Below are positions 15,340 to 62,817 of a DNA stretch of 64,000 nt, piece by piece. Every line of letters starts with the position of its first letter. Position 1 is the stretch's first letter. The notes beneath the pieces were generated by a model that was not told where the DNA came from, did no database searches, and saw only the letters and a program-made list of their open reading frames with translations. The position numbers were made by a program, and so were the translations under genes. Source of the stretch: Limnoperna fortunei. Taxonomy: Eukaryota; Mollusca; Bivalvia; Mytilida; Modiolidae. The stretch lies in NCBI GenBank assembly GCA_944474755.1, contig OX104124.1:46391342-46455341 (forward strand), read 5' to 3'.

Positions 15340-15540
15340 TGATACCTGTCAAGGACTGCTACAGTGAACACCAGTCATACTAAATCAAGGTAAGAACTGA
15401 TGATGACTATCAAGGACTGCTATAGTGAACATCAGTCGTACTAAATCAAGGTAAGAACTGATAATGACTGACAAGGACTGCTACAGTGAATTTCAGTCAT
15501 TCTAAATCCAGGTAAAAATTTAAAAGTACTGTCACGATCT
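15340..15540. repeat. Three-copy minisatellite, about 63-bp unit
   Basis: 'CAAGGACTGCTACAGTGAAC' followed by CAGTCATACTAAATCAAGGT and AAGAACTGATGATGACT repeats about three times and then decays towards 15790. Each copy includes CAAG|GTAAGA, a perfect 5'-splice-site-like sequence. No coding content is seen. Confidence 0.75.
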
Positions 15541-20251: not shown

Positions 20252-20273
20252 GGTGCACTCAGGTGCTCCGGAC

Positions 20274-24350: not shown

Positions 24351-24354
24351 GTCG

Positions 24355-24807
24355 AGTTACTCTTTGTCATATCTAGGTAAAAGTCAAATTCAGTAATAAG
24401 AAACACTTCCTATGACAGATCGTACTTTAGACACTGATTTCTAATAAAAATAAGACATACAGAATCTTAATTAAATCAGACGTTCAAATCAGAAACAAGT
24501 AAGTCAACTTTAGATAAATCAGACGTGCAGAAACGAGTGCGTACTTTATAGATAAATCAGACGTACAGAAAGATATAAATATACATGTACGTTAGATAAA
24601 TCAAACGTACATAAACTAGTTTACAGCAAACTTTAGATTAACTAGAAGTAAATTAAAAACACAAGTAACTTTAGCAAAATGCAAGTAAAGTTTTGCTTTA
24701 TCAGATGTACAGAAACGTGTAAGTAAAATCAGACTACGGAAACAAGTTAATAAACATAAGATAAGTGGGAGTACATAAACGAGTAACTATGTAGATATTA
24801 ATTAAAT
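24355..24807. repeat. Degenerate AGATAAATCAGACGTACAGAAAC minisatellite
   Basis: Short units with 'TTTAGATAAATCAGACGTAC' and 'AGAAAC' at irregular spacing lead into the regular 41-bp array. It is the ragged 5' edge of that array and belongs to the same family as 13740-14495. Confidence 0.75.
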
Positions 24808-28769: not shown

Positions 28770-29400
28770 TTAGATAAATCTGACAAACAGCAACAAGTTA
28801 GTCTTAGATAAATCTGACAAACAGCAACAAGTAAGTCTTAGATAAATCTGACAAACAGCAACAAGTAAGTCTTAGATAAATCTGACAAACAGCAACAAGT
28901 TAGTCTTAGATAAATCTGACAAACAGCAACAAGTAAGTCTTAGATAAATCTGACAAACAGCAACAAGTAAGTCTTAGATAAATCTGACAAACAGCAACAA
29001 GTAAGTCTTAGATAAATCTGACAAACAGCAACAAGTAAGTCTTAGATAAATCTGACAAACAGCAACAAGTAAGTCTTAGATAAATCTGACAAACAGCAAC
29101 AAGTTAGTCTTAGATAAATCTGACAAACAGCAACAAGTAAGTCTTAGATAAATCTGACAAACAGCAACAAGTAAGTCTTAGATAAATCTGACAAACAGCA
29201 ACAAGTTAGTCTTAGATAAATCTGACAAACAGCAACAAGTTAGTCTTAGATAAATCTGACAAACAGCAACAAGTTAGTCTTAGATAAATCTGACAAACAG
29301 CAACAAGTTAGTCTTAGATAAATCAGACAAACAGCAACAAGTTAGTCTTAGATAAATCTGACAAACAGCAACAAGTAAGTCTTAGATAAATCAGACGAAC
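28770..29400. repeat. 34-bp minisatellite, about 18 copies
   Basis: The unit is TTAGATAAATCTGACAAACA plus GCAACAAGTAAGTC. It joins the 41-bp units at the shared TTTAGATA. The last units become ATCAGAC..., linking it to the degenerate family at 24355. Copies are nearly identical apart from GTAAGTC/GTTAGTC. Confidence 0.95.
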
Positions 29401-31930
29401 AGAAACAAATAAATAATCTCTGGATCAATCAGACGTACAGAAATAAGTCTAAAGTAAAATTAAGATAAAACAAACGTCAGTGAACGTTCAGAAACAATTA
29501 CGTAAATAAAATGTCATCATAGATACCAAGATAAATAACTACGCTAGTCGCGCGTTTTCAGGGCAGTAACGTCGGATTTCACCTATATTTATAGATACAT
29601 TATGAAATGTATAGTTCTCTAGTGAATCAACATTACACCTCCATATCATTTCGACACCGAATTTAAATATGATAATATTTTGGAGATTTAAAAAAAACAC
29701 TAGGCAATAAAATGTATATATCGGACCTAACAGGATGATGTATTACGTTATGTAGGGTAATTTACATATTCTAATGTATAATGATTTATTGATTCATTGA
29801 TTAAATATGTCCAGCGAGCACTATTTCAGTATATTAAGGACGACATGCATATTGATAGTGTATATTGGAAATGTTCATGTACTGAAACACGTTTTATTAA
29901 AATGATGTTCATGGTAAATTTACAGTTATATACGTTTACTTTGTAATTTAAAATTTTTAAATTAATGAAGATTTACATTGCTATTTTACATTTATAAACA
30001 TTTACATTGAAATTTTACATCAACACGTAATCAATTTACGGTTTGCTTAAATAGTTAATGCAGTAACATATAAATTAACTTTTATGAATTTAATTTATTT
30101 TAAATAAAATAAACAAATACAGATTTATTTTAATGAACAAATAGTATTAATTAATTTAATTAAAGTCTAAAAAATAATTGATACATATCGCTAATAAAAA
30201 AACGTGATCCAATTCAGAAAATTCGAATGAAAATGTTTTCGGAAATTTCCAGAAATAATAGAATATATCATTACATGTATTGCTTTACATGTTGTACTTT
30301 TAAAAAAATAAGATGTCATATCGATAACCATGTAAGATGTCTTTGCTTGTATGGAAAATCTGTCAACACAAATTGCATATGTCCCTTTCCTCCTCTGATC
30401 ATGGTTAAATTTAACATCGAAAATTATCAGAACAAGAAATCACATACCGTTAAAAGAAATACACAGTTTTTTTGCTGTATGGAAATATTTTTGTTTTTAA
30501 TCATAGTAAAACAATAACATCCTTTATCAGCATGTGATCATAGCTTCTTAAGATTTGGTTTCCATGCATAACACTCATTACTGTTTAAAAACCAGTTGAA
30601 CCCTTGTCTTGGCTTTAATCGTCCCAATGTTTGAAACCATGCATATCAATGAATATTCATTATTGCAATATATGGCAAGTTCAACCCATATATGGATAGT
30701 CTACACCATACATGGGCAGACATGCCCCATGTATAGGCAGTCTACATTGATATAAAGGTGGACTTCAGAGTTGAACTTAAAAAAAATATATAATAATATC
30801 GCCTTTAAGTTTTCAAAATGTGGCTAAAACCAATAAACGAAAGCCTCCTCTAATAATTTTTTATTTTTACACGTATATAATGTGAATAAATGACAAAAAC
30901 AGTTCAGTATGCGCAAGTTATTTGACTGCTACACCTGAAAGTCTTTTGGAATTTTCACTACATATTTTTTACAAAATGGCCAGTCGACGTCTTGAGAGTG
31001 AGGTAAGGCGGGCCCGTCTCACCCTGGTAAAGTGAGATGGGATACTACCGCACATAACGATCAAAGGAAAATATTGGAAAATTGCAATAATATTCCCTCT
31101 TTAAATTAAATCTGAAGAAAATCTTTAATGAAAAGTAACAATTCATAACAAATGCATTCATACTACAAAATACATATTGCTGTAGAAGTCACCTGTCACA
31201 ATAAGCTTGCTGTAATATAATTCTTTGAATTTTCGCCATTACAACAAAGACTAGAGCTGAGATGATAATCAAGATATGTTCTCTGTTATCGTCCACAGCT
31301 GGCATAATAAAAGATAACTTGTGAATAAGTGGATTAGATTTTTATGCATCCTGCTTAATAATTCCTCAACGATTTCCCTCAGACAAATAAATAATATGCG
31401 CAAGTGCCAGCAAAATAAATTTGTCAGCAAACTTTAATGACATAACAAATTTGGTAATATCCAGGCTATGATTAGTATACATAATTTTTACATACTCATA
31501 AGCTAGGTAACTAAATTGAAGCGGATATAAATTAATTTAAAAATCTGTTAATAAAGCAGTACGTTCTTGTAAATACATTTAGTATTTGATTTTAATTAAG
31601 ATTTAATTATGTTAATATAGGTTTATTATTGTCAGAAAGCCTATCAACAAGTCCAAACTCTCTGGGTCATTTTAAGTACATTTTAATGTTGACAATTGTT
31701 TTATAAGTAAAGAACATACATTGGTAAATAGTATTAAAGTCATTTTCTGCAATTTTGAAAGTCTGAATAATGTATTTATTTGTTATAAAATACCCTTTAA
31801 CAGTAATGCATACTAAAATAACATGGCTCAATCAGGTAACACCGTACTCTCGATAATGTCAAACTTAATATTTACAAGTCTATATAAATACTAATATTGT
31901 ACTTCGAAGATTTATTTTTCAATGATTTCT
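29400..31930. other. Intergenic, nothing recognised
   Basis: Very AT-rich. A small cluster of CCATATATGG / CCATGTATAGG palindromic motifs lies at 30670-30760. No exon or known element was recognised. Confidence 0.4.
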
Positions 31931-35089: not shown

Positions 35090-35184
35090 GAGCAAGGAAT
35101 AATAAAACCAGAAGAATGGGCAGAATTTCTAGATTCCATGCGGCAGCCATTACCTAAAACATTTAGGATTACGGGTTTTAGAGG
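35090..35184 (+). CDS. NSUN2: NSUN2 exon: N-terminal EQGIIKPEEW segment
   Basis: After the acceptor ATATTCCAG it reads EQGIIKPEEWAEFLDSMRQP then LPKTFRITGFR. Human NSUN2 has ELKIVPEGEW..FMDALREPLPATLRITGYK at this place. It ends with two bases (GG) before GTTCGT. These join the first base of the next exon to give Gly, continuing ITGFRG-EAQEML, where human has ITGYKSHAKEIL. The codons read past the donor run to a nearby stop and are intron. The GTTCGT donor is less canonical than the other donors in the gene. Confidence 0.85.
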
Positions 35185-36851: not shown

Positions 36852-36941
36852 AGAGGCACAAGAAATGTTAAAGATCATCAAGAATGAGTACATTAATAAT
36901 CTGGTTTCTGATGGGGTATGTCCAGTTCATAGCTTACCATG
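36852..36941 (+). CDS. NSUN2: NSUN2 exon: EAQEMLKIIKNEY segment
   Basis: The exon lies between the acceptor TTTACAG and the donor ATG|GTAAGC. It codes EAQEMLKIIKNEYINNLVSD and then GVCPVHSLPW. Human: [20 protein letters not shown]..QPLSW. It starts with one base completing Gly and ends with two bases (TG) of the Trp codon, which the next exon completes. No lesions. Confidence 0.9.
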
Positions 36942-37532: not shown

Positions 37533-37638
37533 GTATCCAAATGAACTGGGATGGCAGATAGATTTATCTAGGAGGGAGATACGTCACCAACATGACCTGC
37601 AGGCTCTAAAAGATTTCCTACTAAATGAAACAGAAAGT
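37533..37638 (+). CDS. NSUN2: NSUN2 exon: YPNELGW...NETES segment
   Basis: After the acceptor CTTTCTTTATAG the first base completes Trp, then YPNELGWQIDLSRREIRHQH and DLQALKDFLLNETES follow. Human: [34 protein letters not shown]. The donor is read as AGT|GTAGAT, ending phase 0. A second possible donor lies 2 bases upstream. Reading on gives VDLRN and a stop. The expected continuation (human GNISRQEAVSMIPP) is not here; its second part is found in the array beginning at 41331. Confidence 0.85.
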
Positions 37639-37683
37639 GTAGATTTAAGAAACTGATCACAATTGGAAATAATCCGATTAAGA

Positions 37684-37843
37684 AATAATTCAAGGCTGTC
37701 CAAATTTTATGGATTATTTAAATGTAAGTAGGAATTATATTCATGAATATTTTGCCACGAGCGTTAGCAATTGGTAAAATGTCATGAATATAATGCTACC
37801 CATATTTAAATAATCCATAAAATTTGGGCAGCCTTGAATTGTT
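37684..37843. repeat. 160-bp hairpin element in NSUN2 intron
   Basis: The left arm AATAATTCAAGGCTGTCCAA, TTTTATGGATTATTTAAATG, ...ATTCATGAATATTTTGCCA is matched inverted by TGGTAAAATGTCATGAATAT ... CATTTGGGTAGC-like sequence ending CCTTGAATTGTT. The loop is about 14 bases. It sits 46 bases after the end of the NSUN2 exon and looks like a MITE-type foldback. Confidence 0.85.
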
Positions 37844-38149
37844 TCGATTCTGATATGAAAATAGTGAAATTTTACATTTCGCGACTACATAGGTACATGT
37901 TCATTTTGGCTGTTCCAATTTCCAAGATACTCTATTGTTACAAAATTAGTTTTGTTCTCTTGGAAAACTTCATAGAAAACAGGAAGAAATATAAATTAAA
38001 AAAACAAACTAACATATTTATTAAAATTAATATAATTTAAAAATCAGAACAAAGAACGACAAAATTAAATCCTTCGTTATATCACCGTGTCTGTGACTGT
38101 GTTGGTGTGTTAGCTGTGTTATGAAAACTGCTGACCGGATTTTGGTTGA

Positions 38150-38500
38150 GCTTATGCTCCTGTTGTAAATCTAAAATGGTGCAAATTTAAATCAACAATT
38201 ATTTTCCACAGTTAATTAGCATTTTGAGAAATTTGGTTGTGTTTTCATTTTGATTCAGTAAATTCGTTTGCTATGGAGGCGGTTGTTGGAATAACATTGA
38301 ATGTCATTGTAAACAACACAATGTCCATTGAGAACACAATGCATCGTATTAAATATGGACGTGTTATCAGTGGAAATTTTTTCTATTGGATTGTTGTAAT
38401 ACAGGGGTACAATATAATAATCAAAAAAGGCAAGCAAAAACATAAGGGCTTTTCCAGAAAAAAAGGTACAGTGGGGTCGGAACGTAGGTAATTTTTTTTC
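38150..38500. repeat. Dispersed repeat copy B (same family as 1-240)
   Basis: It shares TGGTGCAAATTTAAATCAAC and TTGTGTTTTCATTTTGATTC with the window start. The right part (TTTTCCAGAAAAAAAGGTAC, GGGGTCGGAACG) reappears inverted at 41040-41085. It lies in an NSUN2 intron. Confidence 0.75.
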
Positions 38501-39120
38501 CATGGTGGGGGGCGGGGTTGGGTTGAGGGTATTTCTATTTTGGTGGGTTTATGAACATTTTTATTAAAATAATCGCGGTTTTCGGTGTTTTTCTGTTTCT
38601 ATTTCGCCAAACGCGGTGCTTTTGGCGACGTCCGTGCGATTTTTGACTGACGATTTTGTCGGAATGAATGCAAGGAGAATAACCGATCATCATGAACTTG
38701 TGAATGGTGTACGCACGAAAGTTCCGAATGGGACTGGTTGCCGATTTTCTATTTTGCTCTGCTCTCTCATTAACCAGATGTAAAATTCAGAGTATACCAA
38801 AAATGCGTAAAACACATGGCAGAATGTAAGAATGGAGCGTTGACAACGTATTTAACCAACGGCCTATCTCAATATGCTGATACATTTAAGGGTAACTTTA
38901 TTAAATCCTTTTTTGTTTGGTTTTAATTTTAAAATACTATAAAAGTCATTTACGTATTTTATTATATTGTTTTTATTTAACTTTTTATTTTTTTTTTTTG
39001 GGTTAACTAACAATACATGTACACCATGTTCATTGTTCTTGATAATAATAAGAGATTTTTATTGTTTTAAAATTATTAATTTCATTGCCGTCTAATATAA
39101 TAAAGTTGAGATCTGAGTTT
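38500..39120. other. NSUN2 intron, nothing recognised
   Basis: No exon or named repeat was recognised. A T-rich run is present near 38990. Confidence 0.35.
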
Positions 39121-39656
39121 TTAGCTCACCTGACCAAAGGGTCATGTGAGCTATTGTTATCACTTTGCGTCCGTCGGCGTTGTTGTCTGTAAACTTTTTA
39201 CATTTTAATCTTCTTATCACAATCCACTTGGCCAATTGAACCCAAACTTGGCGATTATGTTCATTTGAAGGACCTTTACAAAGTTTGTGTTTTTTATTTG
39301 GATTGGAAAACTAATATGGCTACCACAGCATTACATATATTAACATTGGACCCTAAGGAAAAAGTTTTAAAAGGCTTCTTCTCTGAAACCGATTAACCAA
39401 TTGAAACAAAACTTACTGGCAATATTGTTTGAATGGTCTTCTTTAAATTTTGTTTTATTGCCAATTGGAAAAACATAAATCTTCTGTAAAACCGGTTAAT
39501 AACCAATGGAAATACAATTTTATAGCAATATTGTTTCGATGGTCCTCTATAAAGTTTATTGAAAATTACAGAACTTAGTTTAACATCAGGGAAATGCCAT
39601 CTTCATTGCCTATAAAATCAGGTGAGCGATACAGGCTCTTAAGAGCCTCTAGTTAA
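39118..39656. repeat. 'TTTTTAGCTCACCTG...GAGCCTCTAG' dispersed element, short copy
   Basis: It begins TTTTTAGCTCACCTGACC and ends CAGGTGAGCGATACAGGCTC then TTAAGAGCCTCTAGTT. The same ends bound the copy at 57203-58716. The ends contain an inverted CTCACCTG/CAGGTGAG pair. The 3' GGCTCTTAAGAGCC hairpin followed by CTAG|T is reminiscent of a Helitron 3' end, but the 5' end does not fit the TC start rule, so the class is open. Confidence 0.7.
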
Positions 39657-39659
39657 TAA

Positions 39660-40930
39660 AGTGTTCAATGAGAGGACTCGTAAGTGCAAATCCTATTTTT
39701 TGCAATAAAGAATCAGAGGTATCATTTTGTGAGCACGCTCACAGAATTACTTGTTTACACTTAATACACAAATTGCTTTATAAAGTTAATGTCCCAAACC
39801 TGCCAATAAATGAAAAAATATGGTTGATATTAATTCAAACCACAATAGGACTGGTTGATTTTTAAAAATATCTATTGTGTACTGAAATACAAGATATAGA
39901 CCTGTACTATTTTATGAAACATGAATTAATGACCTAAAGAACACTGCTAATTTGTGAAAATATAATCTGTGTATACTGTTTGTACAAAAAATACTGTTGG
40001 TTTCAGTTTTGATTAAAATTGATATTGGCAAGCTTTATATTTTTTTTAAGAACACCAAAGATAACAGCACAAGAAAACGGACAACTTAAAACTCAGGTGC
40101 TCCAGAAGGGTGCAGTTCCTGCTTGTTGCAACACACCTGTCACGCTTGTGAAAGATGAGCTTGGATCATGATTTTTTTTGACAGATGCAAGTCATTCAAC
40201 ATGTTTAAACACACAAAAAAACTATTTCACTACATGGTGTAAAAAAAGAGTGAATCAATTTCATAAACATTTTATTTCTTATTTAGAACCCTTATACAGT
40301 GTAGTCATAAAGACATCATACAATACATACTACATTTATCACAATGCATTTAGATACAGTTCTCTAAAGGGTTGCTTCAGTATAAACTGGATAGTAGCCC
40401 AAATATAAAGTTAAGAAAATTAATGCCAATTAGTTAAAATAGAATCCACTCGATAGAATTTCATAAGGATTTCCTTTGCTGTTACATCAAGTGGTCTAGT
40501 ATCAGCTTGACTCCACCTGTCCATTTGTTAAAGTTAGGGTAATACCTGAACTATGTGAAATCTCCAAAATATTGGTTTCACAGGGCATCAAGGAAAACCT
40601 TTTCTGTGATGTGACATGTCAATAAAAATCCTTCATGCACATCTACATATTATGTACTTCCTTTATGCTAAGTTTCATTGAATTTCATCAAGCGGTTTAG
40701 GAGGAGTTGCGCTTACAAGGTATGTGGACATACGGACAGACAGACAAACAAGGTGATTCCTATATACCCCCCAAACAAGTTTGTGTGGGGTATAACAAGA
40801 TGAACAGACCAGTTATAAAGCACATACATTATACAAGAGCCAATAGTATCCTTCAGACAAAACAAAATATTTAATCCTATCTGTGGTTTTTTAGCATTCG
40901 AAAAATGAGCACGAATATAATCAAAGAATC
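39660..40930. other. NSUN2 intron, no exon found
   Basis: The short segment CTCAGGTGCTCCAGAAGGGT at about 40094 resembles the sequence flanking the LINE at 18980. Otherwise only chance open frames were seen. Confidence 0.4.
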
Positions 40931-40939
40931 ATATTGATA

Positions 40940-41200
40940 TATCAATTTTATTTATAGGTGGGGGTACTTTCCATAAAAACATTTTCTAGGTTGTGCCTCT
41001 AAAAAAATTAAAATTTAAGTGGTGGTACCACATTTTTTGAGCTGCGTTCCGTCCCCCCACCCCTGTAACTTTTTTCTGGAAATGCCCTCAGCACACAAGG
41101 GTGTAATTTTTTTAATGTCTGATACAGCCACATTCTGTTGATATTTAAATAGAGGTTTGTTTCCATAGCGTTTGAAGGACGTCATATTAGAATAAATCAT
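40940..41200. repeat. Dispersed repeat, inverted copy of the 38150 family
   Basis: The reverse complement contains CCAGAAAAAAGTTACAGGGG and GGGGGACGGAACGCAGC, matching 38453-38487. It also contains TAATATGACGTCCTTCAAAC, matching 4875-4895. The copy is diverged. Confidence 0.65.
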
Positions 41201-41330
41201 AAAAAGTTTTTATAAAGTTAATATGTTATTCAAAGCACAAGTCAAATGACAATGGAAGAGTATTTTGATATAAAATCTTGTACATGAAGGTCAGATGACA
41301 CAAGGAGTAAGTAATCAGACAATGATGCTT

Positions 41331-41382
41331 GCTTTGTCAATGATACCCTCCCTTGCTTATAGATGTCAAACCCCATCATAAG
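41331..41382 (+). pseudogene. NSUN2: First array unit, closest to the ancestral NSUN2 exon
   Basis: Apart from one extra C in the ATACCCTCCC run, which shifts the frame, it would code SMIPP, LLID and VKPHHK. It keeps the Leu-Leu found in human NSUN2, where later units have Leu-Val. It ends AAG|GTAATC. The sequence before it (AATCAGACAATGATGCTTGC) may hold a decayed form of the preceding SRQEAV codons, but this is weak. Its place at the 5' edge and its ancestral-like bases suggest that it is the founder exon. Confidence 0.6.
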
Positions 41383-41442
41383 GTAATCAGTGTCAATGAT
41401 ACCCTCCCTTGGTTATAGATGTCAAACCCCATCATAAGGTAA

Positions 41443-41493
41443 GCAGTGTCAATGATACCTCCATTGGTTCTAGATGTCAAACCCCATCATAAG
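41443..41493 (+). pseudogene. NSUN2: First array unit with the exon frame fully open
   Basis: These 51 bases code AVSMIPPLVLDVKPHHK exactly in frame and are followed by GTAAGC. It is the third unit of the array. It has no recognisable acceptor of its own immediately upstream, only the GTAA of the unit before. Confidence 0.85.
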
Positions 41494-44400
41494 GTAAGCA
41501 GTGTCAATGATACCTCCCTTGGTTCTAGATGTCAAACCCAATCATAAGTTAAGCAGTGTCAATGATACCTCCCTTGGTTCTAGATGTCAAACCCCATCAT
41601 AAGGTAAGCAGTGTCAATGATACCTCCCTTTGTTCTAGCTGTCAAACCAGATCATAAGGTAAGCAGTGTCAATGATACCTCCCTTGGTTCTAGATGTCAA
41701 ACCCCATCATAAGATAAGCAGTGTCAATGATACCTCCCTTGGTTCTAGATGTCAAACCCAATCATAAGGTAAGCAGTGTCAATGATACCTCCCTTGGTTC
41801 TATATGTCAAACCCAATCATAAGGTAAGCAGTGTCAATGATACCTCCCTTGGTTCTAGATGTCAAACCCAATCAGCAGTGTCAATGATACCCTCCCTTGG
41901 TTCTAGATGTCAAACCCAATCATAAGGTAAGCAGTGTCAATGATACCTCCCTTTGTTCTAGATGTCAAACCCCATCATAAGGTAAGCAGTGTCAATGATA
42001 CCTCCCTTGGTTCTAGATGTCAAAGCCCATCAAAAGGTAAGCAGTGTCAATGATACCTCCCTTGGTTCTAGATGTCAAACCCCATCATAAGGTAAGCAGT
42101 GTCAATGATACCTCCCTTGGTTCTAGATGTCAAACCCAATCATAAGGTAAGCAGTGTCAATGATACCTCCCTTGGTTCTAGATGTCAAACCCAATCATAA
42201 GGTAAGCAGTGTCAATGATACCTCCCTTGGTTCTAGATGTCAAACCCAATCATAAGGTAAGCAGTGTCAATGTTACCTCCCTTGGTTCTAGATGTCAAAC
42301 CCAATCATAAGGTAAGCAGTGTCAATGATACCTCCCTTGGTTCTAGATGTCAAAGCCCATCATAAGGTAAGCAGTGTCAATGATACCTCCCTTGGTTCTA
42401 GATGTCAAACCCAATCAGCAGTGTCAATGATACCCTCCATTGGTTCTAGATGTCAAACCCAATCATCAGGTAAGCAGTGTCAATGACACCTCCCTTGGTT
42501 CTAGATGTCAAAGCCCATCATAAGGTAAGCAGTGTCAATGATACCTCCCTTGGTTCTAGATGTCAAACCCCATCATAAGGTAAGCAGTGTCAATGATACC
42601 TCCCTTGGTTCTAGATGTCAAACCCAATCATAAGGTAAGCAGTGTCAATGATACCTCCCTTGGTTCTAGATGTCGAACCCCATCATAAGGTAAGCAGTGT
42701 CAATGATACCTCCATTGGTTCTAGATGTCAAACCCCATCATAAGGTAAGCAGTGTCAATGATACCTCCCTTGGTTCTAAATGTCAAACCCAGTCATAAGG
42801 TAAGCAGTGTCAATGATACCTCCCTTCGTTCTAGATGTCAAACCCAATCATAAGGTAAGCAGTATCAACGATACCTCTTATGGTTCTAGATGTCGAACCC
42901 AATCATAAGGTAAAAAAGTGTCAATGATACCTCCCTTGGTTCTAGATGTCAAACCCAATCATAAGGTAAGCAGTGTCAATGATACCTCCCTTGGTTCTAG
43001 ATGTCAAACCCAATCATAAGGTAAGCAGTATCAACGATACCTCCCTTGGTTCTAGACGTCGAACCCCATCATAGGTAAGCAGTGTCAATGATACCTCCCT
43101 TGGTTCTAGATGTCAAACCACAGCATAAGGTAAGCAGTGTCAATGATACCTCCCTTGGTTCTAGATGTCAAACCCAATCATAAGGTAAGCAGTGTCAATG
43201 ATACCCTCCCTTGGTTCTAGATGTCAAACCCAATCATAAGGTAAGCAGTGTCAATGATACCTCCCTTGGTTCTAGATGTCAAACCCAATCATAAGGTAAG
43301 CAGTGTCAATGATACCTCCCTTGGTTCTAGATGTCAAACCCAATCATAAGGTAAGCAGTGTCAATGATACCTCCCTTGGTTCTAGATGTCAAACCCCATC
43401 ATAAAGTAAGCAGTGTCAATGATACCTCCCTTGGTTCTAGATGTCAAACCCAATCATAAGGTAAGCAGTGTCAATGATACATCCCTTGGTTCTAGATGTC
43501 AAAGCCCATCATAAGGTAAGCAGTGTCAATGATACCTCCCTTTGTTCTAGATGTCAAACCCAATCATAAGGTAAGCAATGTCAATGATACCTCCCTTGGT
43601 TCTAGATGTCAAAGCCCATCATAAGGTAAGCAGTGTCAATGATACCTCCCTTGGTTCTAGATGTCAAACCCCATCATAAGGTAAGCAGTGTGAATGATAC
43701 CTCCCTTGGTTCTAGATGTCAAACCCAATCATAAGGTAAGCAGTGTCAATGATACCTCCCTTGGTTCTAGATGTCAAACCCAATCATAAGGTAAGCAGTG
43801 TCAATGATACCTCCCTTGGTTTCAGATGTCAAACCCAATCATAAGGTAAGCAGTGTCAATGATACCTCCCTTGGTTCTAGATGTCAAACCCAATCATAAG
43901 GTAAGCAGTGTCAATGATACCTCCCTTGGTTCTAGATGTCAAAGCCCATCATAAGGTAAGCAGTGTCAATGATACCTCCCTTGGTTCTAGATGTCAAACC
44001 CAATGAGCAGTGTCAATGATACCCTCCCTTGGTTCTAGATGTCAAACCCAATCATAAGGTAAGCAGTGTCAATGACACCTCCCTTGGTTCTAGATGTCAA
44101 AGCCCATCATAAGGTAAGCAGTGTCAATGATACCTCCCTTGGTTCTAGATGTCGAACCCCATCATAAGGTAAGCAGTGTCAATGATACCTCCCTTGGTTC
44201 TAGATGTCAAACCCCATCATAAGGTAAGCAGTGTCAATGATACCTCCCTTGGTTCTAGATGTCAAACCCAATCATAAGGTAAGCAGTGTCAATGATACCT
44301 CCCTTGGTTCTAGATGTCAAACCCAATCATAAGGTAAGCAGTATCAACGATACCTCTTATGGTTCTAGATGTCGAATCCAATCATAAGGTAAAAAGTGTC

Positions 44401-47400
44401 AATGATACCTCCCTTGGTTCTAGATGTCAAACCCCATCATAAGGTAAGCAGTGTCAATGATACCTCCCTTGGTTCTAGATGTCAAACCCAATCATAAGGT
44501 AAGCAGTATCAACGATACCTCCCTTGGTTCTAGACGTCGAACCCCATCATAGGTAAGCAGTGTCAATGATACCTCCCTTGGTTCTAGATGTCAAACCACA
44601 GCATAAGGTAAGCAGTGTCAATGATACCTCCCTTGGTTCTAGATGTCAAACCCAATCATAAGGTAAGCAGTGTCAATGATACCTCCCTTGGTTCTAGATG
44701 TCAAACCCAATCATAAGGTAAGAAGTGTCAATGATACCTCCCTTGGTTCTAGATGTCAAACCACAGCATAAGGTAAGCAGTGTCAATGATACCTCCCTTG
44801 GTTCTAGATGTCAAACCCAATCATAAGGTAAGCAGTGTCAATGATACCTCCCTTGGTTCTAGATGTCAAACCCAATCATAAGGTAAGAAGTGTCAATGAT
44901 ACCTCCCTTGGTTCTAGATGTCAAACCCAATCATAAGGTAAGCAGTGTCAATGATACCTCCCTTGGTTCTGGATGGCAAACCCAATCATAAGGTAAGCAG
45001 TGTCAATGATACCTCCCTTGGTTCTAGATGTCAAACCCAATCATAAGGTAAGCAGTGTCAATGATACCTCCCTTGGTTCTAGATGTCAAACCCAATCATA
45101 AGGTAAGCAGTGTCAATGATACCCTCCCTTGGTTCTAGATGTCAAACCCAATCATAAGGTAAGCAGTGTCAATGATACCTCCCTTGGTTCTAGATGTCAA
45201 AGCCCATCATAAGGTAAGCAGTGTCAATGATACCTCCCTTGGTTCTAGATGTCAAACCCAATGAGCAGTGTCAATGATACCCTCCCTTGGTTCTAGATGT
45301 CAAACCCCATCATAAGGTAAGCAGTGTCAATGACACCTCCCTTGGTTCTAGATGTCAAAGCCCATCATAAGGTAAGCAGTGTCAATGATACCTCCCTTGG
45401 TTCTAGATGTCAAACCCCATCATAAGGTAAGCAGTGTCAATGATACCTCCCTTGGTTCTAGATGTCAAACCCAATCATAAGGTAAGCAGTGTCAATGATA
45501 CCTCCCTTGGTTCTAGATGTCAAACCCAATCATAAGGTAAGCAGTATCAACGATACCTCTTATGGTTCTAGATGTCGAATCCAATCATAAGGTAAAAAGT
45601 GTCAATGATACCTCCCTTGGTTCTAGATGTCAAACCCAATCATAAGGTAAGCAGTGTCAATGATACCTCCCTTGGTTCTAGATGTCAAACCCAATCATAA
45701 GGTAAGCAGTGTCAATGATACCTCCCTTGGTTCTAGATGTCAAACCCAATCATAAGGTAAGCAGTATCAACGATACCTCCCTTGGTTCTAGACGTCGAAC
45801 CCCATCATAGGTAAGCAGTGTCAATGATACCTCCCTTGGTTCTAGATGTCAAACCCAATCATAAGGTAAGAAGTGTCAATGATACCTCCCTTGGTTCTAG
45901 ATGTCAAACCACAGCATAAGGTAAGCAGTGTCAATGATACCTCCCTTGGTTCTAGATGTCAAACCAAATCATAAGGTAAGCAGTGTCAATGATACCTCCC
46001 TTGGTTCTAGATGTCAAACCCAATCATAAGGTAAGAAGTGTCAATGATACCTCCCTTGGTTCTAGATGTCAAACCCAATCATAAGGTAAGCAGTGTCAAT
46101 GATACCTCCCTTGGTTCTAGATGTCAAACCCCATCATAAGGTAAGCAGTGTCAATGATACCTCCCTTGGTTCTAGATGTCAAACCCAATCATAAGGTAAG
46201 CAGTGTCAATGATACCTCCCTTGGTTCTAGATGTCGAACCCCATCATAAGGTAAGCAGTGTCAATGATACCTCCCTTGGTTCTAGATGTCAAACCCCATC
46301 ATAAGGTAAGCAGTGTCAATGATACCTCCCTTGGTTCTAGATGTCAAACCCAATCATAAGGTAAGCAGTGTCAATGATACCTCCCTTGGTTCTAGATGTC
46401 AAACCCAATCATAAGGTAAGCAGTATCAACGATACCTCTTATGGTTCTAGATGTCGAATCCAATCATAAGGTAAAAAGTGTCAATGATACCTCCCTTGGT
46501 TCTAGATGTCAAACCCAATCATAAGGTAAGCAGTGTCAATGATACCTCCCTTGGTTCTAGATGTCAAACCCAATCATAAGGTAAGCAGTATCAACGATAC
46601 CTCCCTTGGTTCTAGATGTCAAACCACATCATAAGGTAAGCAGTGTCAATGATACCTCCCTTGGTTCTAGATGTCAAACCCAATCATAAGGTAAGAAGTG
46701 TCAATGATACCTCCCTTGGTTCTAGATGTCAAACCCAATCATAAGGTAAGCAGTGTCAATGATACCTCCCTTGGTTCTAAATGGCAAACCCAATCATAAG
46801 GTAAGCAGTGTCAATGATACCTCCCTTGGTTCTAGATGTCAAACCCAATCATAAGGTAAGCAGTGTCAATGATACCTCCCTTGGTTCTAGATGTCAAACC
46901 CAATCATAAGGTAAGCAGTGTCAATGATACCCTCCCTTGGTTCTAGATGTCAAACCCAATCATAAGGTAAGCAGTGTCAATGATACCTCCCTTGGTTCTA
47001 GATGTCAAAGCCCATCATAAGGTAAGCAGTGTCAATGATACCTCCCTTGGTTCTAGATGTCAAACCCAATGAGCAGTGTCAATGATACCCTCCCTTGGTT
47101 CTAGATGTCAAACCCCATCATAAGGTAAGCAGTGTCAATGACACCTCCCTTGGTTCTAGATGTCAAAGCCCATCATAAGGTAAGCAGTGTCAATGATACC
47201 TCCCTTGGTTCTAGATGTCAAACCCCATCATAAGGTAAGCAGTGTCAATGATACCTCCCTTGGTTCTAGATGTCAAACCCTATCATAAGGTAAGCAGTAT
47301 CAACGATACCTCTTATGGTTCTAGATGTCGAATCCAATCATAAGGTAAAAAGTGTCAATGATACCTCCCTTGGTTCTAGATGTCAAACCCAATCATAAGG

Positions 47401-50400
47401 TAAGCAGTGTCAATGATACCTCCCTTGGTTCTAGATGTCAAACCCAATCATAAGGTAAGCAGTGTCAATGATACCTCCCTTGGTTCTAGATGTCAAACCC
47501 AATCATAAGGTAAGCAGTATCAACGATACCTCCCTTGGTTCTAGACGTCGAACCCCATCATAGGTAAGCAGTGTCAATGATACCTCCCTTGGTTCTAGAT
47601 GTCAAACCACAGCATAAGGTAAGCAGTGTCAATGATACCTCCCTTGGTTCTAGATGTCAAACCCAATCATAAGGTAAGCAGTGTCAATGATACCTCCCTT
47701 GGTTCTAGATGTCAAACCCAATCATAAGGTAAGAAGTGTCAATGATACCTCCCTTGGTTCTAGATGTCAAACCACAGCATAAGGTAAGCAGTGTCAATGA
47801 TACCTCCCTTGGTTCTAGATGTCAAACCAAATCATAAGGTAAGCAGTGTCAATGATACCTCCCTTGGTTCTAGATGTCAAACCCAATCATAAGGTAAGAA
47901 GTGTCAATGATACCTCCCTTGGTTCTAGATGTCAAACCCAATCATAAGGTAAGCAGTGTCAATGATACCTCCCTTGGTTCTAGATGTCAAACCCAATCAT
48001 AAGGTAAGCAGTATCAACGATACCTCTTATGGTTCTAGATGTCGAATCCAATCATAAGGTAAAAAGTGTCAATGATACCTCCCTTGGTTCTAGATGTCAA
48101 ACCCAATCATAAGGTAAGCAGTGTCAATGATACCTCCCTTGGTTCTAGATGTCAAACCCAATCATAAGGTAAGCAGTATCAACGATACCTCCCTTGGTTC
48201 TAGACGTCGAACCCCATCATAGGTAAGCAGTGTCAATGATACCTCCCTTGGTTCTAGATGTCAAACCACAGCATAAGGTAAGCAGTGTCAATGATACCTC
48301 CCTTGGTTCTAGATGTCAAACCCAATCATAAGGTAAGCAGTGTCAATGATACCTCCCTTGGTTCTAGATGTCAAACCCAATCATAAGGTAAGAAGTGTCA
48401 ATGATACCTCCCTTGGTTCTAGATGTCAAACCACAGCATAAGGTAAGCAGTGTCAATGATACCTCCCTTGGTTCTAGATGTCAAACCCAATCATAAGGTA
48501 AGCAGTGTCAATGATACCTCCCTTGGTTCTAGATATCAAACCCAATCATAAGGTAAGAAGTGTCAATGATACCTCCCTTGGTTCTAGATGTCAAACCCAA
48601 TCATAAGGTAAGCAGTGTCAATGATACCTCCCTTGGTTCTAGATGACAAACCCAATCATAAGGTAAGCAGTGTCAATGATACCTCCCTTGGTTCTAGATG
48701 TCAAACCCAATCATAAGGTAAGCAGTGTCAATGATACCTCCCTTGGTTCTAGATGTCAAACCCAATCATAAGGTAAGCAGTGTCAATGATACCCTCCCTT
48801 GGTTCTAGATGTCAAACCCAATCATAAGGTAAGCAGTGTCAATGATACCTCCCTTGGTTCTAGATGTCAAACCCAATGAGCAGTGTCAATGATACCCTCC
48901 CTTGGTTCTAGATGTCAAACCCAATCATAAGGTAAGCAGTGTCAATGACACCTCCCTTGGTTCTAGATGTCAAAGCCCATCATAAGGTAAGCAGTGTCAA
49001 TGATACCTCCCTTGGTTCTAGATGTCAAACCCCATCATAAGGTAAGCAGTGTCAATGATACCTCCCTTGGTTCTAGATGTCAAACCCAATCATAAGGTAA
49101 GCAGTGTCAATGATACCTCCCTTGGTTCTAGATGTCGAACCCCATCATAAGGTAAGCAGTGTCAATGATACCTCCCTTGGTTCTAGATGTCAAACCCCAT
49201 CATAAGGTAAGCAGTGTCAATGATACCTCCCTTGGTTCTAGATGTCAAACCCAATCATAAGGTAAGCAGTGTCAATGATACCTCCCTTGGTTCTAGATGT
49301 CAAACCCAATCATAAGGTAAGCAGTATCAACGATACCTCTTATGGTTCTAGATGTCGAATCCAATCATAAGGTAAAAAGTGTCAATGATACCTCCCTTGG
49401 TTCTAGATGTCAAACCCAATCATAAGGTAAGCAGTGTCAATGATACCTCCCTTGGTTCTAGATGTCAAACCCAATCATAAGGTAAGCAGTGTGAATGATA
49501 CCTCCCTTGGTTCTAGACGTCGAACCCCATCATAGGTAAGCAGTGTCAATGATACCTCCCTTGGTTCTAGATGTCAAACCACAGCATAAGGTAAGCAGTG
49601 TCAATGATACCTCCCTTGGTTCTAGATGTCAAACCCAATCATAAGGTAAGCAGTGTCAATGATACCTCCCTTGGTTCTAGAAGTCAAACCCAATCATAAG
49701 GTAAGAAGTGTCAATGATACCTCCCTTGGTTCTAGATGTCAAACCCCATCATAAGGTAAGCAGTGTCAATGATACCTCCCTTGGTTCTAGATGTCAAACC
49801 CAATCATAAGGTAAACAGTGTCAATGATACCTCCCTTGGTTCTAGATGTCAAACCCAATCATAAGGTAAGCAGTGTCAATGATACCCTCCCTTGGTTCTA
49901 GATGTCAAACCCAATCATAAGGTAAGCAGTGTCAATGATACCTCCCTTGGTTCTAGATGTCAAACCCAATCATAAGGTAAGCAGTGTCAATGATACCTCC
50001 CTTGGTTCTAGATGTCAAACCCAATTATAAGGTAAGCAGTGTCAATGATACCTCCCTTGGTTCTAGATGTCAAACCCCATCATAAAGTAAGCAGTGTCAA
50101 TGATACCCTCCCTTGGTTCTAGATGTCAAACCCCATCATAATGTAAGCAGTGTCAATGATACCTCCCTTGGTTCTAGATGTCAAACCCAATCATAAGGTA
50201 AGAAGTGTCAATGATACCTCCCTTGGTTCTAGATGTCAAACCCCATCATAAGGTAAGCAGTGTCAATGATACCTCCCTTGGTTCTAGATGTCAAACCCAA
50301 TCATAAGGTAAGCAGTGTCAATGATACCTCCCTTGGTTCTAGATGTCAAACCCAATCATAAGGTAAGCAGTGTCAATGATACCTCCCTTGGTTCTAGATG

Positions 50401-50904
50401 TCAAACCCAATCATAAGGTAAGCAGTGTCAATGATACCTCCCTTGGTTCTAGATGTCAAACCCAATCATAAGGTAAGCAGTGTCAATGATACCTCCCTTG
50501 GTTCTAGATGTCAAACCCAATCATAAGGTAAGCAGTGTCAATGATACCTCCCTTGGTTTTAGATGTCAAACCCAATCATAAGGTAAGCAGTGTCAATGAT
50601 ACCTCCCTTGGTTCTAGATGTCAAACCCAATCATAAGGTAAGCAGTGTCAATGATACCTCCCTTGGTTCTAGATGTCAAAGCCCATCATAAGGTAAGCAG
50701 TGTCAATGATACCTCCCTTGGTTCTAGATGTCAAAGCCCATGTTCCTATAGGCTGTTTTGTAATTCAGCAAAATGTGTTCATGAATAATTAAAACAATGC
50801 AACGTGGTGCAGTATCATTTAATGTCCTATCTAATGCCTAATTTTTTATATTGAGCATTTATGTAAATTCTGGAAGTTTTTGCTGATGCTTCACGTAGAG
50901 TTTT

Positions 50905-51414
50905 TGAGTTTTGTGGGGCCCTTACACTGTGATGTTACAAGTAGAGGATTTTTGGTTAAAATGTCTTTTGTGTGACCCTTACACTGTAAACAAGTATAGG
51001 ATTTTTGGTATACATGTCTTCTCTGGTGCACTTGCACTGTATACAAGTATAGGATGTATGTGTACACGTCTTCTGTTGGGCCCTTACACTGTACACAAGT
51101 ATAGGATTTTGGTATACATGTCTTATGTAGGGGCCTTACACTGTATACAAGTATAGGATTTTGGTATACACGTCTTATATGGGGCCCTTACACTGTATAC
51201 AAGTATAGGATTTGGGTATACATGTCTTATATTGGGCCTTTACACTGTAAAAAAGTATAGGATTTTTGGTCTACATGTCTTCTGAGGGGCCATTACACTG
51301 TATACAAGTAAAAGATTTGGGTATACACGTCTTATATGGGGCCTTTACACTGTAAACACGTATAGGATTTTGGTATAAATGTCTTCTATGGGGCCCTTAC
51401 ACTGTATACAAGTA
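50905..51414. repeat. 52-bp minisatellite, first part
   Basis: The unit is GGGCCCTTACACTGTATACA, AGTATAGGATTTTGGTATAC, ATGTCTTATGTG, about 10 copies. It belongs to the same NSUN2 intron as the end of the exon-derived array. It is interrupted at 51414 by a MITE and resumes at 52313. Confidence 0.92.
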
Positions 51415-52312
51415 CAGTCGAACCTCGTCTCGAACTTGGTTGACTCGATACTTTGGTTATGTCAATATAATTTTTAAGTCCGGGCGTTTTTCCCATATCA
51501 ACAATGACTTTCTACCTCGGATGTGTCGATCTCGATTTTTGCAATCCGGATAATAAAAATTAGTGTAATTTTGACCTCTTTGTCTCGAAGTTAATTTTAC
51601 TCTCGATATCATATCTCAAAACTAACAATTTCACTTGTATTGTTACTTAATTAGCGCCTGTTTATTTTAACACCTGTGATACAGTTAACACGATAATTGA
51701 TTGGCTTATACCATTTGAATTGACAATTTAATAAAAACGAATTGATTATCCAAACGCACTACAAGCATTACTAAGGTTAATTAATGATACGCTCGTTACT
51801 GTCCGAATTATTTGTTATGTTTGATTAATAATGATTATAACTGAAAATTTCATTTGATCTGATCAATGATATATGTAGTCGAGTTTCGTTTCTTTAAAGA
51901 CATTCTGTTATTTTTGTTGACTTGTGTGTTGTTGTCAATTACGTTCAAAACAATCTGTATTGTTTAATTAGTTCTTTCGAACTGTAAGTTGATAAGCGTT
52001 TTCTTGAAAAAATTTTCCATGTTTGCGTTATAATAAAGATTATAAATTTGATTACACTATTTATTAATTATTGTTTCAATAATGTTTGATTTATTTCAAT
52101 GGATATATAGAAAAATACTTCATATATCGCACGCTACAAATACAAACCATGCCGACGTTCAAAACCAATATACATGAAATAAATACCCTTAGATTTTGTT
52201 TAAAATCACATAATGAAAATGACGTCACGCCCTAAACTTGGTTGACTCAAACTTCGGATAACTAGATATATTATAACGGTACCACAAACTTCGACTTATC
52301 GAGGTTTTACTG
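51415..52312. mobile_element. pogo/Tc1-mariner-like MITE, about 0.9 kb
   Basis: The left end CAGTCGAACCTCG and the inverted right end CAGTAAAACCTCG agree at 11 of 13 bases. CTTGGTTGACTC occurs near both ends. It sits in the minisatellite with TA on the left; on the right there is one extra T before TAAGG. Termini of the CAGT..AACCTCG type with TA target sites are typical of pogo/Tigger-like elements. No transposase frame is seen, so it is non-autonomous. Confidence 0.8.
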
Positions 52313-52730
52313 TTAAGGATTTTGGTATACACGTCTTCTGTGGGGCCCTTACACTGTATACAAGTAAAGGATTTTGGTATACACGTCTTATATGGGGCCC
52401 TTACACTGTATACAAGTAGAGGATTTTGGTATACACGTCTTTTGTGGGGCCCTTACACTGTATAACAGTAAAGGATTTTGGTATACATGTCTTTAGTGGG
52501 GCCCTTACACTGTATTCAAGTACAGGATTTTGGTATACATGTCTTTTGTGGGGCCCTTACACTGTATACATGTAAAGAATTTTGGTATACATGTCTTATG
52601 TGGGGCCCTTACACTGTATAAAAGTTGAGGATTTTGGTATACATGTCTTTTATGTGGGCCCTTACACTGTATTCAAGTAGAGGATTTTGGTATACATGTC
52701 TTATTTGGGCCCTTACACTGTATATCAGGT
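52313..52730. repeat. 52-bp minisatellite, second part
   Basis: About eight more units of the array that starts at 50905, with TGTGGGGCCCTTACACTGTA as the most constant part. It ends 26 bases before the acceptor of the next NSUN2 exon. Confidence 0.92.
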
Positions 52731-52756
52731 TATATAAAACCTACATTTTGTTGCAG

Positions 52757-52822
52757 GTATTACATATGTGTGCAGCTCTAGGGTCAAGACTGCTCAGTTG
52801 ATAGAGTTACTACATGCTTAAG
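52757..52822 (+). pseudogene. NSUN2: NSUN2 exon with SAM motif I, damaged
   Basis: The splice sites look normal (TTTGTTGCAG| and TAAG|GTGACA). The beginning reads VLHMCAALGS in frame 1, where human has ILDMCAAPGSK. The rest reads TAQLIELLHA in another frame, where human has TTQLIEMLHA. A 1-base deletion in the Ser-Lys codons joins the two. The expected motif-I Asp is His, the Pro of APGSK is Leu, and the penultimate codon before the donor is TAA. The outer phases (0 at the start, 1 base at the end) still match the neighbouring exons, so this is the true exon position. Loss of motif I would abolish SAM binding. A sequencing or assembly error could explain one change but hardly all four. Confidence 0.85.
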
Positions 52823-55103: not shown

Positions 55104-56460
<1,357 letters not shown>

Positions 56461-56468
56461 TTATTTAG

Positions 56469-56524
56469 GATGGAATCAAAGATTTTATACAGTATGATAT
56501 AATTCTGTGTGATGTTCCATGTAG
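56469..56524 (+). CDS. NSUN2: NSUN2 exon with catalytic PC motif (DVPC)
   Basis: It is a 56-base exon after TATTTAG, coding DGIKDFIQYDIILCDVPC plus two bases of Ser, with donor AG|GTAAGG. Human: [22 protein letters not shown]. The Cys of the Pro-Cys motif (human C271) is present. The phase joins the next exon as C-S-GDG. Confidence 0.92.
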
Positions 56525-58786: not shown

Positions 58787-58861
58787 TGGTGATGGAACTT
58801 TGAGAAAGAACCCTGATATTTGGCACAAATGGAACCCAAATATAGGCCCAAATCTTCATAA
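58787..58861 (+). CDS. NSUN2: NSUN2 exon: GDGTLRKNPDIWHKW segment
   Basis: The acceptor is TATTTTGCAG and the donor CATAA|GTAAGT. It codes GDGTLRKNPDIWHKWNPNIG and then PNLH. Human: [24 protein letters not shown]. One base at the start completes Ser and two at the end begin Lys. No lesions. Confidence 0.93.
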
Positions 58862-59034
58862 GTAAGTTTTTGGTGAGGGCAAAACATTGGGATTGGCTGA
58901 AATCATTACAATTTAAATTCTGAAAGGAACCTAAACATAGCTTGAAATCTTTATATGTAACTTCAGAATGAAATCCCAACATTAGCCCAAACATTTGTAT
59001 ACTAAATTTTGACATATTTTGATTATTGTTTTTG

Positions 59035-59525: not shown

Positions 59526-59860
59526 TCTATGGAACCCAAATGTTGGCCCAAACGAAGTAAGTTTATAATAGAACCCAGATCTTCCTAACTAAGTTATGCA
59601 TGAAACTCAAAATGTACCCAATACTTAAATATGGACCTAAGTATTTTTGAACGGAACCCAAACGTTGATTTAAACCATTGAAAAGTAATATCTTATTAGA
59701 ACAGAAACATTTGTCTTATTCATTCAAAACCACCAAATATATTTATTGAGGACATAAATATCACATGTACATCATGTAGATTTTCAAATATTTCGGTAAA
59801 AAAAAGTTGTAAACATCAAATACCTGCTTTCAAAAATGACAAATTTTTATTTTAAATTAG

Positions 59861-59991
59861 AGTACAGATGAAGATATTAAAGAAAGGCCTAGAATTATTG
59901 GCTGTCGGTGGTAGAATGGTGTACTCTACATGTTCACTGAACCCAATAGAAAATGAAGCTGTCATTGACAGCATTCTTAATCAATGTAAAG
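59861..59991 (+). CDS. NSUN2: NSUN2 exon with catalytic TC motif (STCSLNP)
   Basis: The exon codes [20 protein letters not shown] and [20 protein letters not shown], then QCK plus one base. Human: [42 protein letters not shown]. The Cys of STCS corresponds to the second catalytic cysteine (human C321). The acceptor is TTAAATTAG and the donor AAAG|GTAGGT. The frame remains open past the donor for about 20 codons but that part is intron. Confidence 0.94.
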
Positions 59992-59997
59992 GTAGGT

Positions 59998-60868
59998 CAC
60001 AGGTCAGCTGTAAATATACCTCTAAAGGTTATATGTTGGTGTACCTCTAAAGGTCAGCTGTTATTTTATCCATAAAGGTCAGATGTCGGTGTACCACTAA
60101 AGAACAGTTGTTGGTGCACTCAAAAGATCAGAAGTTGATTGCACATCTAAAGGTCAGATATCTGTGTATGTCTGAAGGTCAGATGTCTGTGTTCCTCTAA
60201 AGGTCAGACTGTATCTCTGAAGGTCAGATGTCTGTGTATCTCTGAAGGTCAGATGTCTGTGATCCTCTAACGGTCAGACTGTATCTCTGAAGGTAGGTCA
60301 CAGGTCAGCTGTAAATATACCTCTAAAGGTTATATGTTGGTGTACCTCTAAAGGTCAGCTGTTATTTTATCCATAAAGGTCAGATGCCGGTGTACCACTA
60401 AGGTCATATGTTAGTGTACCTCTAAAGGTCAGCTGTTATTTTACCTATAAATGACAGATATCGGTGTACCACTAAAGAACAGTTGTTGGTGCACTCAAAA
60501 GGTCAGAAGTTGATTGCACATCTAAAGGTCAGATGTCTATGTTCCTCTAAAGGTCAGACTGTATCTCTGAAGGTCAGATGTCTGTGTATCTCTGAAGGTC
60601 AGATGTCTGTGTTCCTCTAAAGGTCAGACTGTATCTCTGATGGTCAGATGTCGGTGTATCTCTGAAGGTCAGATGTAAGTGTATCTCTGAAGGTCAGATG
60701 TCTGTATCTCTGAAGGTCAGATGTCTGTGTATCTCTGACGGTCAGATGTCGGTGTATCTCTGAAGGTCAGAAGTCTGTGTATCTCTTAAGGTCAGATGTC
60801 GGTGTATCTCTGAAGGTAAGATATCGTTGTATCTCTGAAGGTCAGATGTCTGTCTATCTCGAAACGTC
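59998..60868. repeat. 25-bp minisatellite, AAGGTCAGATGTCTGTGTATCTCTG type
   Basis: About 30 imperfect units of about 25 bases. They begin right after the donor of the preceding exon, whose sequence (TGTAAAGGTAGGTCACAGGT) is itself recalled in the units (CTCTAAAGGTCAG; GAAGGTAGGTCACAGGTCAG at 60288). A longer repeat of about 300 bases is visible (59990-60085 versus 60288-60385). Confidence 0.88.
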
Positions 60869-61376
60869 ATATGTTGGAGGAAGTCAGTACAGGACTTACG
60901 ATGTCGGATAAGGTCAGTATAGGACTTACGATGTTGGAGGAAGTCAGTACAGGACTTACGATGTTGGAGGAAGTCAGTACAGGACTTACGATGTTGGAGG
61001 AAGTCATTACAGAACTTATGATGTTGGGGGAGGTCAGTACAGGACTTACGATGTGGAGGAAGTCAGTACAGGACTTACGATGTTGGAGGAAGTCAGTATA
61101 GGACTTACGATGTTGGAGGAAGTCAGTATAGGACTAACGATGTTGGAGGAAGTTAGTGCAGGACTAACGATGTTGGAGGAAGTCAGTACAGGACTTACGG
61201 TGTTGGAGGAAGTCAGTACAGGACTTACGATGTTGGAGGAGGTCAGTACAGGACTTACGATGTTGGAGGAAGTCAGTACAGGACTTACGATGTTGCAGGA
61301 AGTCAGTACAGAACTTACGATGTTGGAGGAAGTCAGTACAGGACTTACGATGTTGGAGGAAGTCAGTATAGGACTT
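60869..61376. repeat. 30-bp minisatellite, about 17 copies, open in several frames
   Basis: The unit is ATGTTGGAGGAAGTCAGTAC plus AGGACTTACG. Because 30 is a multiple of 3, frames stay open and give MLEEVSTGLT repeats on + and SSNIVSPVLT or CTDFLQHRKS repeats on -. It lies wholly within an NSUN2 intron. There is no splice-site support for coding use. Confidence 0.92.
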
Positions 61377-61708: not shown

Positions 61709-61782
61709 GTTGTGTTGAATTATTAGATGTCAGTGGTCAGCTTCCTAAACTGAAATACACAAAAGGTTTATCTACATGGAAA
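61709..61782 (+). CDS. NSUN2: NSUN2 exon: CVELLDVSGQLPKLKY segment
   Basis: Between CATTGTAG| and AAA|GTGAGT it codes CVELLDVSGQLPKLKYTKGL and then STWK. Human: [24 protein letters not shown]. Two bases at the start complete Gly and the exon ends on a full codon. No lesions. Confidence 0.92.
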
Positions 61783-61894: not shown

Positions 61895-62600
61895 TAATGT
61901 CAAACTCTAACGAGTACTTCTGGCAATGGTTCAAAGGAGGGTAGACCCCCCTCTTATATGATGTTAAACTCTAAGGATTACTTCTGTCAATGGTTCAAAG
62001 GAGGGTAGACCCCCCTCTTATGTGATGTTAAACTCTAAGGATTACTTCTGTCAATGGTTCAAAGGATGGTATACCCCTTCTTATATGATGTTAAACTCTA
62101 AGGATTACTTCTGGTAATTGCTCAAAGGAGGGTAGACCCCCCTCTAATATGATGTTAAACTCTAAGGATTACTTCTGTCAATGGTTCAAAGGAGGGTAGA
62201 CCCCCATCTTATATGATGTTAAACTCTAAGGATTACTTCTGGCAATTGTTCAAAGGAGGGTAGACGCCCCTCTAATATGCTGTTAAACTCTAAGGATTAC
62301 TTCTGGCAATTGTTCAAAGGAGGGTAGACCCCCCTCTTATATGATGTTAAACTCTAAGGATTACTTCTGGCAATTGTTCAAAGGAGGATATACCCCCCTT
62401 TATGTGATGTTAAACTCTAAGGATTACTTCTTGCAATTGTTCAAAGGAGGGTAGACCCCTCTTATATGATGTTCAACTCTAAGGATTACTTCTGGCAATT
62501 GTTCAAAGGAGGGTAGACCCCCTTTTTATATGATGTTAAACTCTAAGGAGTACTTCTGGCAAAGGTTCAAAGGAAGTTAGACCCCCCCCCCTCTTATATG
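61895..62600. repeat. 64-bp minisatellite, about 11 copies
   Basis: The unit is GATGTTAAACTCTAAGGATT, ACTTCTGGCAATTGTTCAAA, GGAGGGTAGACCCCCCTCTT, ATAT, with length change in the C run. It is intronic in NSUN2. Confidence 0.93.
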
Positions 62601-62695: not shown

Positions 62696-62817
62696 GTGTT
62701 TAATAAGAAGATGGAGAGATTTGACATCATAACAGAGGCTAGAGACAAAGGTTATCTACATAACGAGGTATCCATGTTCCCTCCCGATGATACAGATAGC
62801 CTTCATTTAGATCGATG
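62696..62817 (+). CDS. NSUN2: NSUN2 exon: VFNKKMERFD...MFPPDDTDSLHLDR segment
   Basis: After TTATTTTTAG it codes VFNKKMERFDIITEARDKGY and LHNEVSMFPPDDTDSLHLDR plus TG of a Cys codon, with donor GTATAT. Human: [39 protein letters not shown]. The middle is less conserved, as is usual for this part. The next exon (human RILPHHQNTGGFF) is not in the window in a usable phase. Confidence 0.9.

Follow-up and report, generated by a model that had tools for sequence, protein, structure and literature searches.

Where did the long minisatellite in this bivalve locus come from, and does the gene that carries it still make its protein? The locus was analysed in a window of 64,000 nucleotides from Limnoperna fortunei (contig OX104124.1), to which all positions below refer. 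In the first-pass annotation, the array had been described as a coding exon of NSUN2, an RNA-methylating enzyme, amplified in place about 170 times together with its 5' splice site.

Wraparound alignment of positions 41331-50741 (~9.4 kb) gave 172 tandem units, 51 of them distinct, and Tandem Repeats Finder reported an array at 41335-50740 with a period of 55, 171.7 copies and 94% matches, the copy number being that of one assembly and one haplotype. The unit was 55 nt long in 144 of the 172 cases, followed by 56 nt (15), 54 nt (6), 47 nt (6) and 45 nt (1); the sole 45-nt unit is the cut right edge of the array, where the rightmost unit ends before its donor, and in each of the two leftmost units an additional C puts the sequence out of frame. 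The 27-base core of the unit was matched 151 times with at most 3 mismatches, versus 0 matches in 100 shuffles.

The motif AGGTAAG was found 151 times in sense and 0 times in antisense within the array, strong donors reached 16.0 per kb there versus 0.75 per kb elsewhere in the window, and no AATAAA was found in the array. Selection could have kept the array as a set of decoy 5' splice sites to which U1 snRNP would bind, as the 151 strong sense donors, the lack of antisense ones and the missing AATAAA might suggest, but all of this follows from copying one unit, and the donor positions vary like the other unit positions with no sign of selection seen; such a role is regarded as highly improbable.

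Read in one frame, the unit gives AVSMIPPLVLDVKP[H/N]HK, followed by AAG|GTAAGC. The H form is identical at 17 of 17 residues to the NSUN2 of Mytilus edulis (P0121, where the sequence is AVSMIPPLVLDVKPHHK), supporting the proposed derivation of the unit from NSUN2 exon sequence and its 5' splice site, and the unit alignment reproduced the copy number, the composition of 51 exon bases plus 4 intron bases and the donor as previously described. P0121 was the best full-length relative among the matches listed, with 73% identity to a partly composed query. By coding content, the 172 units comprised 16 with the exact H form, 64 with the N form, 27 whose exon part contains an indel or a gap, and 65 other variants.

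The relatives were taken from two lists, each holding the best 120 of thousands of matches. The stretch GNISRQEAVSMIPPL (up to 6 substitutions) was present in 228 of these 240 relatives, including 120 of 120 full-length ones (P0121-P0240), and the 12 lacking it all come from the other list, whose shorter proteins include partial sequences. The segment would have been doubtful as an NSUN2 exon if bivalve orthologues lacked it, but it is kept in all 15 nameable bivalve rows (14 species) among P0121-P0149. Exact matches of the unit core numbered 0 in viral contigs and 0 in prokaryote contigs, searches from which records near the genome of the window were possibly excluded, and no RNA family reached its gathering score in the comparison with RNA families.

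To place the array within the gene, P0121 was compared with the window by tblastn with the array masked. Matches on the plus strand started at 35084, 36853 and 37534 (ending ..NETES) before the array and at 52754, 55116, 56469, 58782, 59859, 61708 and 62696 after it, indicating that the array lies between flanking NSUN2 exons in the expected order and on the same strand, as had been proposed. The features are collected in Table 1, in which the exon numbers E2-E12 are our own; NSUN2 exon 1 was looked for in the window and was not recognised.

Table 1. Exons of the NSUN2 copy, the main array and smaller boundary repeats in the window.
Feature	Position	Strand	Evidence
NSUN2 exon E2, open; weak donor AGG|GTTCGT	35090..35184	+	tblastn of P0121, splice sites, donor score 3.0
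NSUN2 exon E3, open	36852..36941	+	tblastn of P0121, splice sites
NSUN2 exon E4 (..NETE), open; weak donor AAA|GTGTAG	37533..37636	+	tblastn of P0121, splice sites, donor score 1.5
Array of 172 55-bp units: last 51 nt (17 codons) of NSUN2 exon E5 plus 4 intron nt	41331..50741	+	Tandem Repeats Finder, wraparound units, residue identity, donor count
NSUN2 exon E6, broken: D to H, P to L, 1-base frameshift, in-frame TAA	52757..52837	+	tblastn of P0121
NSUN2 exon E7, open	55117..55250	+	tblastn of P0121, splice sites
Degenerate E7 pieces 3' of the E7 donor: one donor-spanning (55280-55322), two exon-only	55280..55431	+	probe matches
NSUN2 exon E8, open; conserved R to I	56469..56524	+	tblastn of P0121, splice sites
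NSUN2 exon E9, open	58787..58861	+	tblastn of P0121, splice sites
Two degenerate copies of E9 end plus donor	58923..59010	+	probe matches
Two more degenerate copies of E9 end plus donor	59529..59595	+	probe matches
NSUN2 exon E10, open	59861..59991	+	tblastn of P0121, splice sites
E10 donor copy with 3 exon nt only, inside the 25-bp minisatellite 60017-60877	60290..60317	+	donor probe
NSUN2 exon E11, open	61709..61782	+	tblastn of P0121, splice sites
NSUN2 exon E12, open	62696..62817	+	tblastn of P0121, splice sites

What the protein lacks between E4 and E6 is the segment encoded by the unit, which in Mytilus is preceded by GNISRQE. A regular-expression search for GNISRQE, the 5' half of the exon, in six frames of the window with up to 2 substitutions found no match, and at codon level the best fits were 15 of 21 compatible bases in the flank 37637-41340 (versus 16-17 in 10 shuffles) and 15 of 21 in the flank 50741-52757 (versus 15-17 in 10 shuffles). 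The amplification of a whole exon is thus not supported, since the unit holds only the last 17 codons, and the agreement in phase that had been claimed for both ends of the array stands at the 3' end, where the unit ends in HHK at phase 0 and the next exon begins at phase 0, and has no support at the 5' end, where the first half of the exon was not found. An intact copy of the exon elsewhere in the window, which would have spoken for a different source, was not found either.

The exons E2-E4 and E7-E12 together give 881 nt that are open, free of stops and frameshifts, and contain the motifs CDVPC and STCSLNP, to which we ascribe a catalytic role in NSUN2. A working NSUN2 would need an intact GNISRQEAVSMIPP.. 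exon and an intact SAM motif I exon, and neither was found at this locus. In E6, which we take to encode SAM motif I, the conserved D and P of the motif are changed to H and L, and a one-base frameshift and an in-frame TAA are also present. Judged from these lesions, this gene copy probably no longer makes a normal, working NSUN2.

Could the lesions and the missing half of the exon be specific to one haplotype or to the assembly, so that another haplotype would carry a normal exon 5 and a normal E6, whether or not the array is there? Assembling long tandem arrays is difficult, and the frameshift in E6 falls in a short run of A, a context in which sequencing errors arise, and could, taken alone, be an error; however, two missense changes and a stop in the same exon are untypical of such errors, and the array holds 51 distinct units, not one read repeated. 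We consider this explanation improbable, at a level close to that of the exon-skipping gene discussed below and slightly under it.

Decay in the remaining exons was assessed against the relatives, with those having more than 60 scorable columns taken into the percentile comparison. Outside E5 and E6, 3 of 72 columns conserved at >=95% were changed and 15 of 293 residues were unseen in relatives; both rates exceed the 95th percentiles of the relatives (3.0% and 3.4%), with M. edulis itself at 2/66 and 10/293. This is a mild rise and no wholesale decay. The proportion of changed conserved columns was 2/13 in E6 versus 3/72 in the other exons, a difference that was not significant (Fisher p = 0.17). 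Because 881 nt remain open and M. edulis comes near on both measures, the gene is either lost only recently or partly still in use.

Partial use would take the form of a living NSUN2-derived gene in which E4 is spliced to E7 over 17.5 kb, skipping both ruined exons and ignoring the 151 decoy donors, while the freed exon decayed into the 172-copy minisatellite. The predicted product would resemble NSUN2 but lack motif X and SAM motif I; it would probably be unable to methylate, a methylation-dead but conserved RNA-binding protein. The E4-E7 join keeps the frame with 293 codons open, although this happens by chance in one of three exon pairs; the joined protein scores as Methyltr_RsmB-F from profile position 31 onward; and both disabling lesions fall in E6 while the other 881 nt are free of them, a distribution with p = 0.007 if decay were uniform, in a post hoc test. 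On the other side, conserved-residue changes are somewhat raised, no near-identical protein lacking the segment occurred among the matches listed, and the E4 donor is poor. With a donor matrix, E4 scored 1.5 bits, E2 3.0 bits and the array unit 11.0 bits, and among all GT sites in the window (n = 4176) 28% reached the score of E4 and 19% that of E2. A recently lost copy is ranked above a skipping gene because the E4 donor is weak, and the skipping gene is considered unlikely.

The evolution of the array was followed in its units. Distinct variants in the coding part included 9 synonymous and 36 nonsynonymous ones, with 24% synonymous expected (p = 0.79), so that variation within the array looks neutral and without coding constraint. 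At unit position 43, the Mytilus-like C is present in 59 units, including the three leftmost, and A in 107. Blocks of variant units recur, the longest being 9 units (starts 46090 and 48991) versus at most 7 (mean 4.3) in 300 shuffles, and therefore multi-unit blocks were duplicated.

The likely start is a short tandem duplication across the exon-intron boundary, although the first duplication is no longer visible. A possible trigger is short homology between the exon (..GCAGTG) and the start of the intron (GTAAGCAG), which is plausible because the unit junction reads AAG|GTAAGCAGTG. Growth would then likely have proceeded by unequal exchange or slippage of both single units and multi-unit blocks. 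In sum, the array is read as the final 17 codons of an NSUN2 exon with its donor, repeated 172 times, likely begun by a boundary duplication and likely grown by exchange or slippage, in a gene copy that probably does not work, and we give this reading a probability of roughly three in four.

Repeats that span exon-intron boundaries have been published for amphioxus under the name of mirages (PMC3087553, PMC3902484). In the excerpted accounts, their units measure 10-72 bp in Adh3 and ~150-160 bp in the globins, and splicing is reported as undisturbed (PMC3902484). The NSUN2 array resembles them in having boundary-spanning units, many of them with AG/GT signals, and in amphioxus variants have also spread between units (PMC3087553, PMC3902484). 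The NSUN2 unit itself spans the boundary of its host exon, with 51 nt of coding sequence plus the donor, and AG/GT signals recur in most of its copies, as counted above. The array sits between E4 and E6 and no authentic exon 5 was found, and the published mirage definition refers to repeats that span the boundary. The difference is in scale and state: the amphioxus globin BflGb6 has 6 and 3 units in two haplotypes, an authentic exon alongside and normal splicing (PMC3902484), whereas the NSUN2 array has 172 units and 151 strong sense donors, lies in a mollusc and leaves no intact exon that was found. As DNA, the array would now act as a noncoding intronic minisatellite of the mirage type.

Two further systems bear on the comparison. 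Introns can be gained when AGGT segments are duplicated in tandem, a route that has been reviewed (PMC3443670), and the NSUN2 array likewise is a coding segment with AG|GT duplicated in tandem; the AGGT route yields a working new intron, whereas here the boundary pre-existed and no intron gain is shown. In human paralogs, new introns have been connected with repeats at exon-intron boundaries (PMC2812944). In molluscs, intron 3 of an abalone TSSK1-like gene contains a length-variable minisatellite with a 27-bp unit, an intronic minisatellite in a molluscan gene as here, but the excerpted account names neither an exonic origin nor a splice site for that unit, unlike the NSUN2 unit (PMC6905558). 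The literature search, judged by titles and the starts of abstracts, gave no account of this locus or of any molluscan case.

The array would extend an amphioxus phenomenon to a mollusc. It indicates that coding exon sequence with its splice donor can turn into a kilobase-scale minisatellite in place, with an origin still readable residue by residue. Should the gene still be transcribed, its 151 near-identical strong donors within a single intron would form a natural test of true versus decoy 5' splice sites; if it is not, the locus would be a clean case of an exon becoming satellite DNA.

The remaining exons were also probed for boundary-spanning repeats. Probes of exon end plus donor for 10 donors gave downstream copies for E7 (score 45), E9 (41) and E10 (56), with shuffle maxima of 37, 34 and 31, and acceptor probes gave downstream copies for 0 of 9. 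Two further matches downstream of E7 were short or low-complexity, and downstream of E9 there were four degenerate donor-spanning copies and one further partial copy. Donor-specific seeding (3 of 10 exons, 0 of 9 acceptors) is not shown, since 22-24% of random anchors (n = 600, outside the main array) score as high. The locus is minisatellite-rich, and the copies after E10 count as marginal.

Among 18 arrays of the window, the donor score was higher in sense than in antisense in 13, and those at 15349, 28770 and 41335 reached donor-motif shuffle p <= 0.006 (18 tested); a donor motif in the other minisatellites of the window is suggestive only. A sense-strand AAG|GTAAGA that resembles a strong donor occurs in the unit of the 61-bp tandem repeat at 15346-15550 (shuffle p = 0.006, 18 arrays tested), and the 34-bp repeat at 28770-29412 (18.9 copies) has a donor-like sequence, CAA|GTAAGT, on the sense strand (shuffle p = 0.002, 18 tested). 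A degenerate 68/136-bp tandem repeat at 12418-12973 has a unit that looks like an acceptor, a 26-nt exon-like stretch (GCTGTCAGTAGAATT..GGACACAG) and a donor-like GTATGAG, and is possibly a second boundary-type minisatellite.

Within the NSUN2 introns, shortly before the broken E6, a stretch without repeats is enclosed by two arrays (50914-51414 and 52315-52724) whose 52-bp units are almost identical, and the similarity of these arrays to the E6 acceptor was not above shuffles. Minisatellites without recognised exon sequence were also observed in NSUN2 introns at 60871-61376 (30 bp x 16.9) and 61897-62587 (64 bp x 10.9). Elsewhere in the window, G-rich degenerate 26-28-bp repeats at 9583-10903 give long stop-free proline-rich frames on the minus strand, and a minus-strand ORF at 6354-6701 matches an integrase core domain (Pfam rva_4). 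A LINE-like element lies on the minus strand at 19294-24356, with a reverse transcriptase (PF00078) in the ORF at 20574-21944; at 19294-20301 the end of an ORF occurs a second time in nearly the same form. The best relative of the element was 49% identical.
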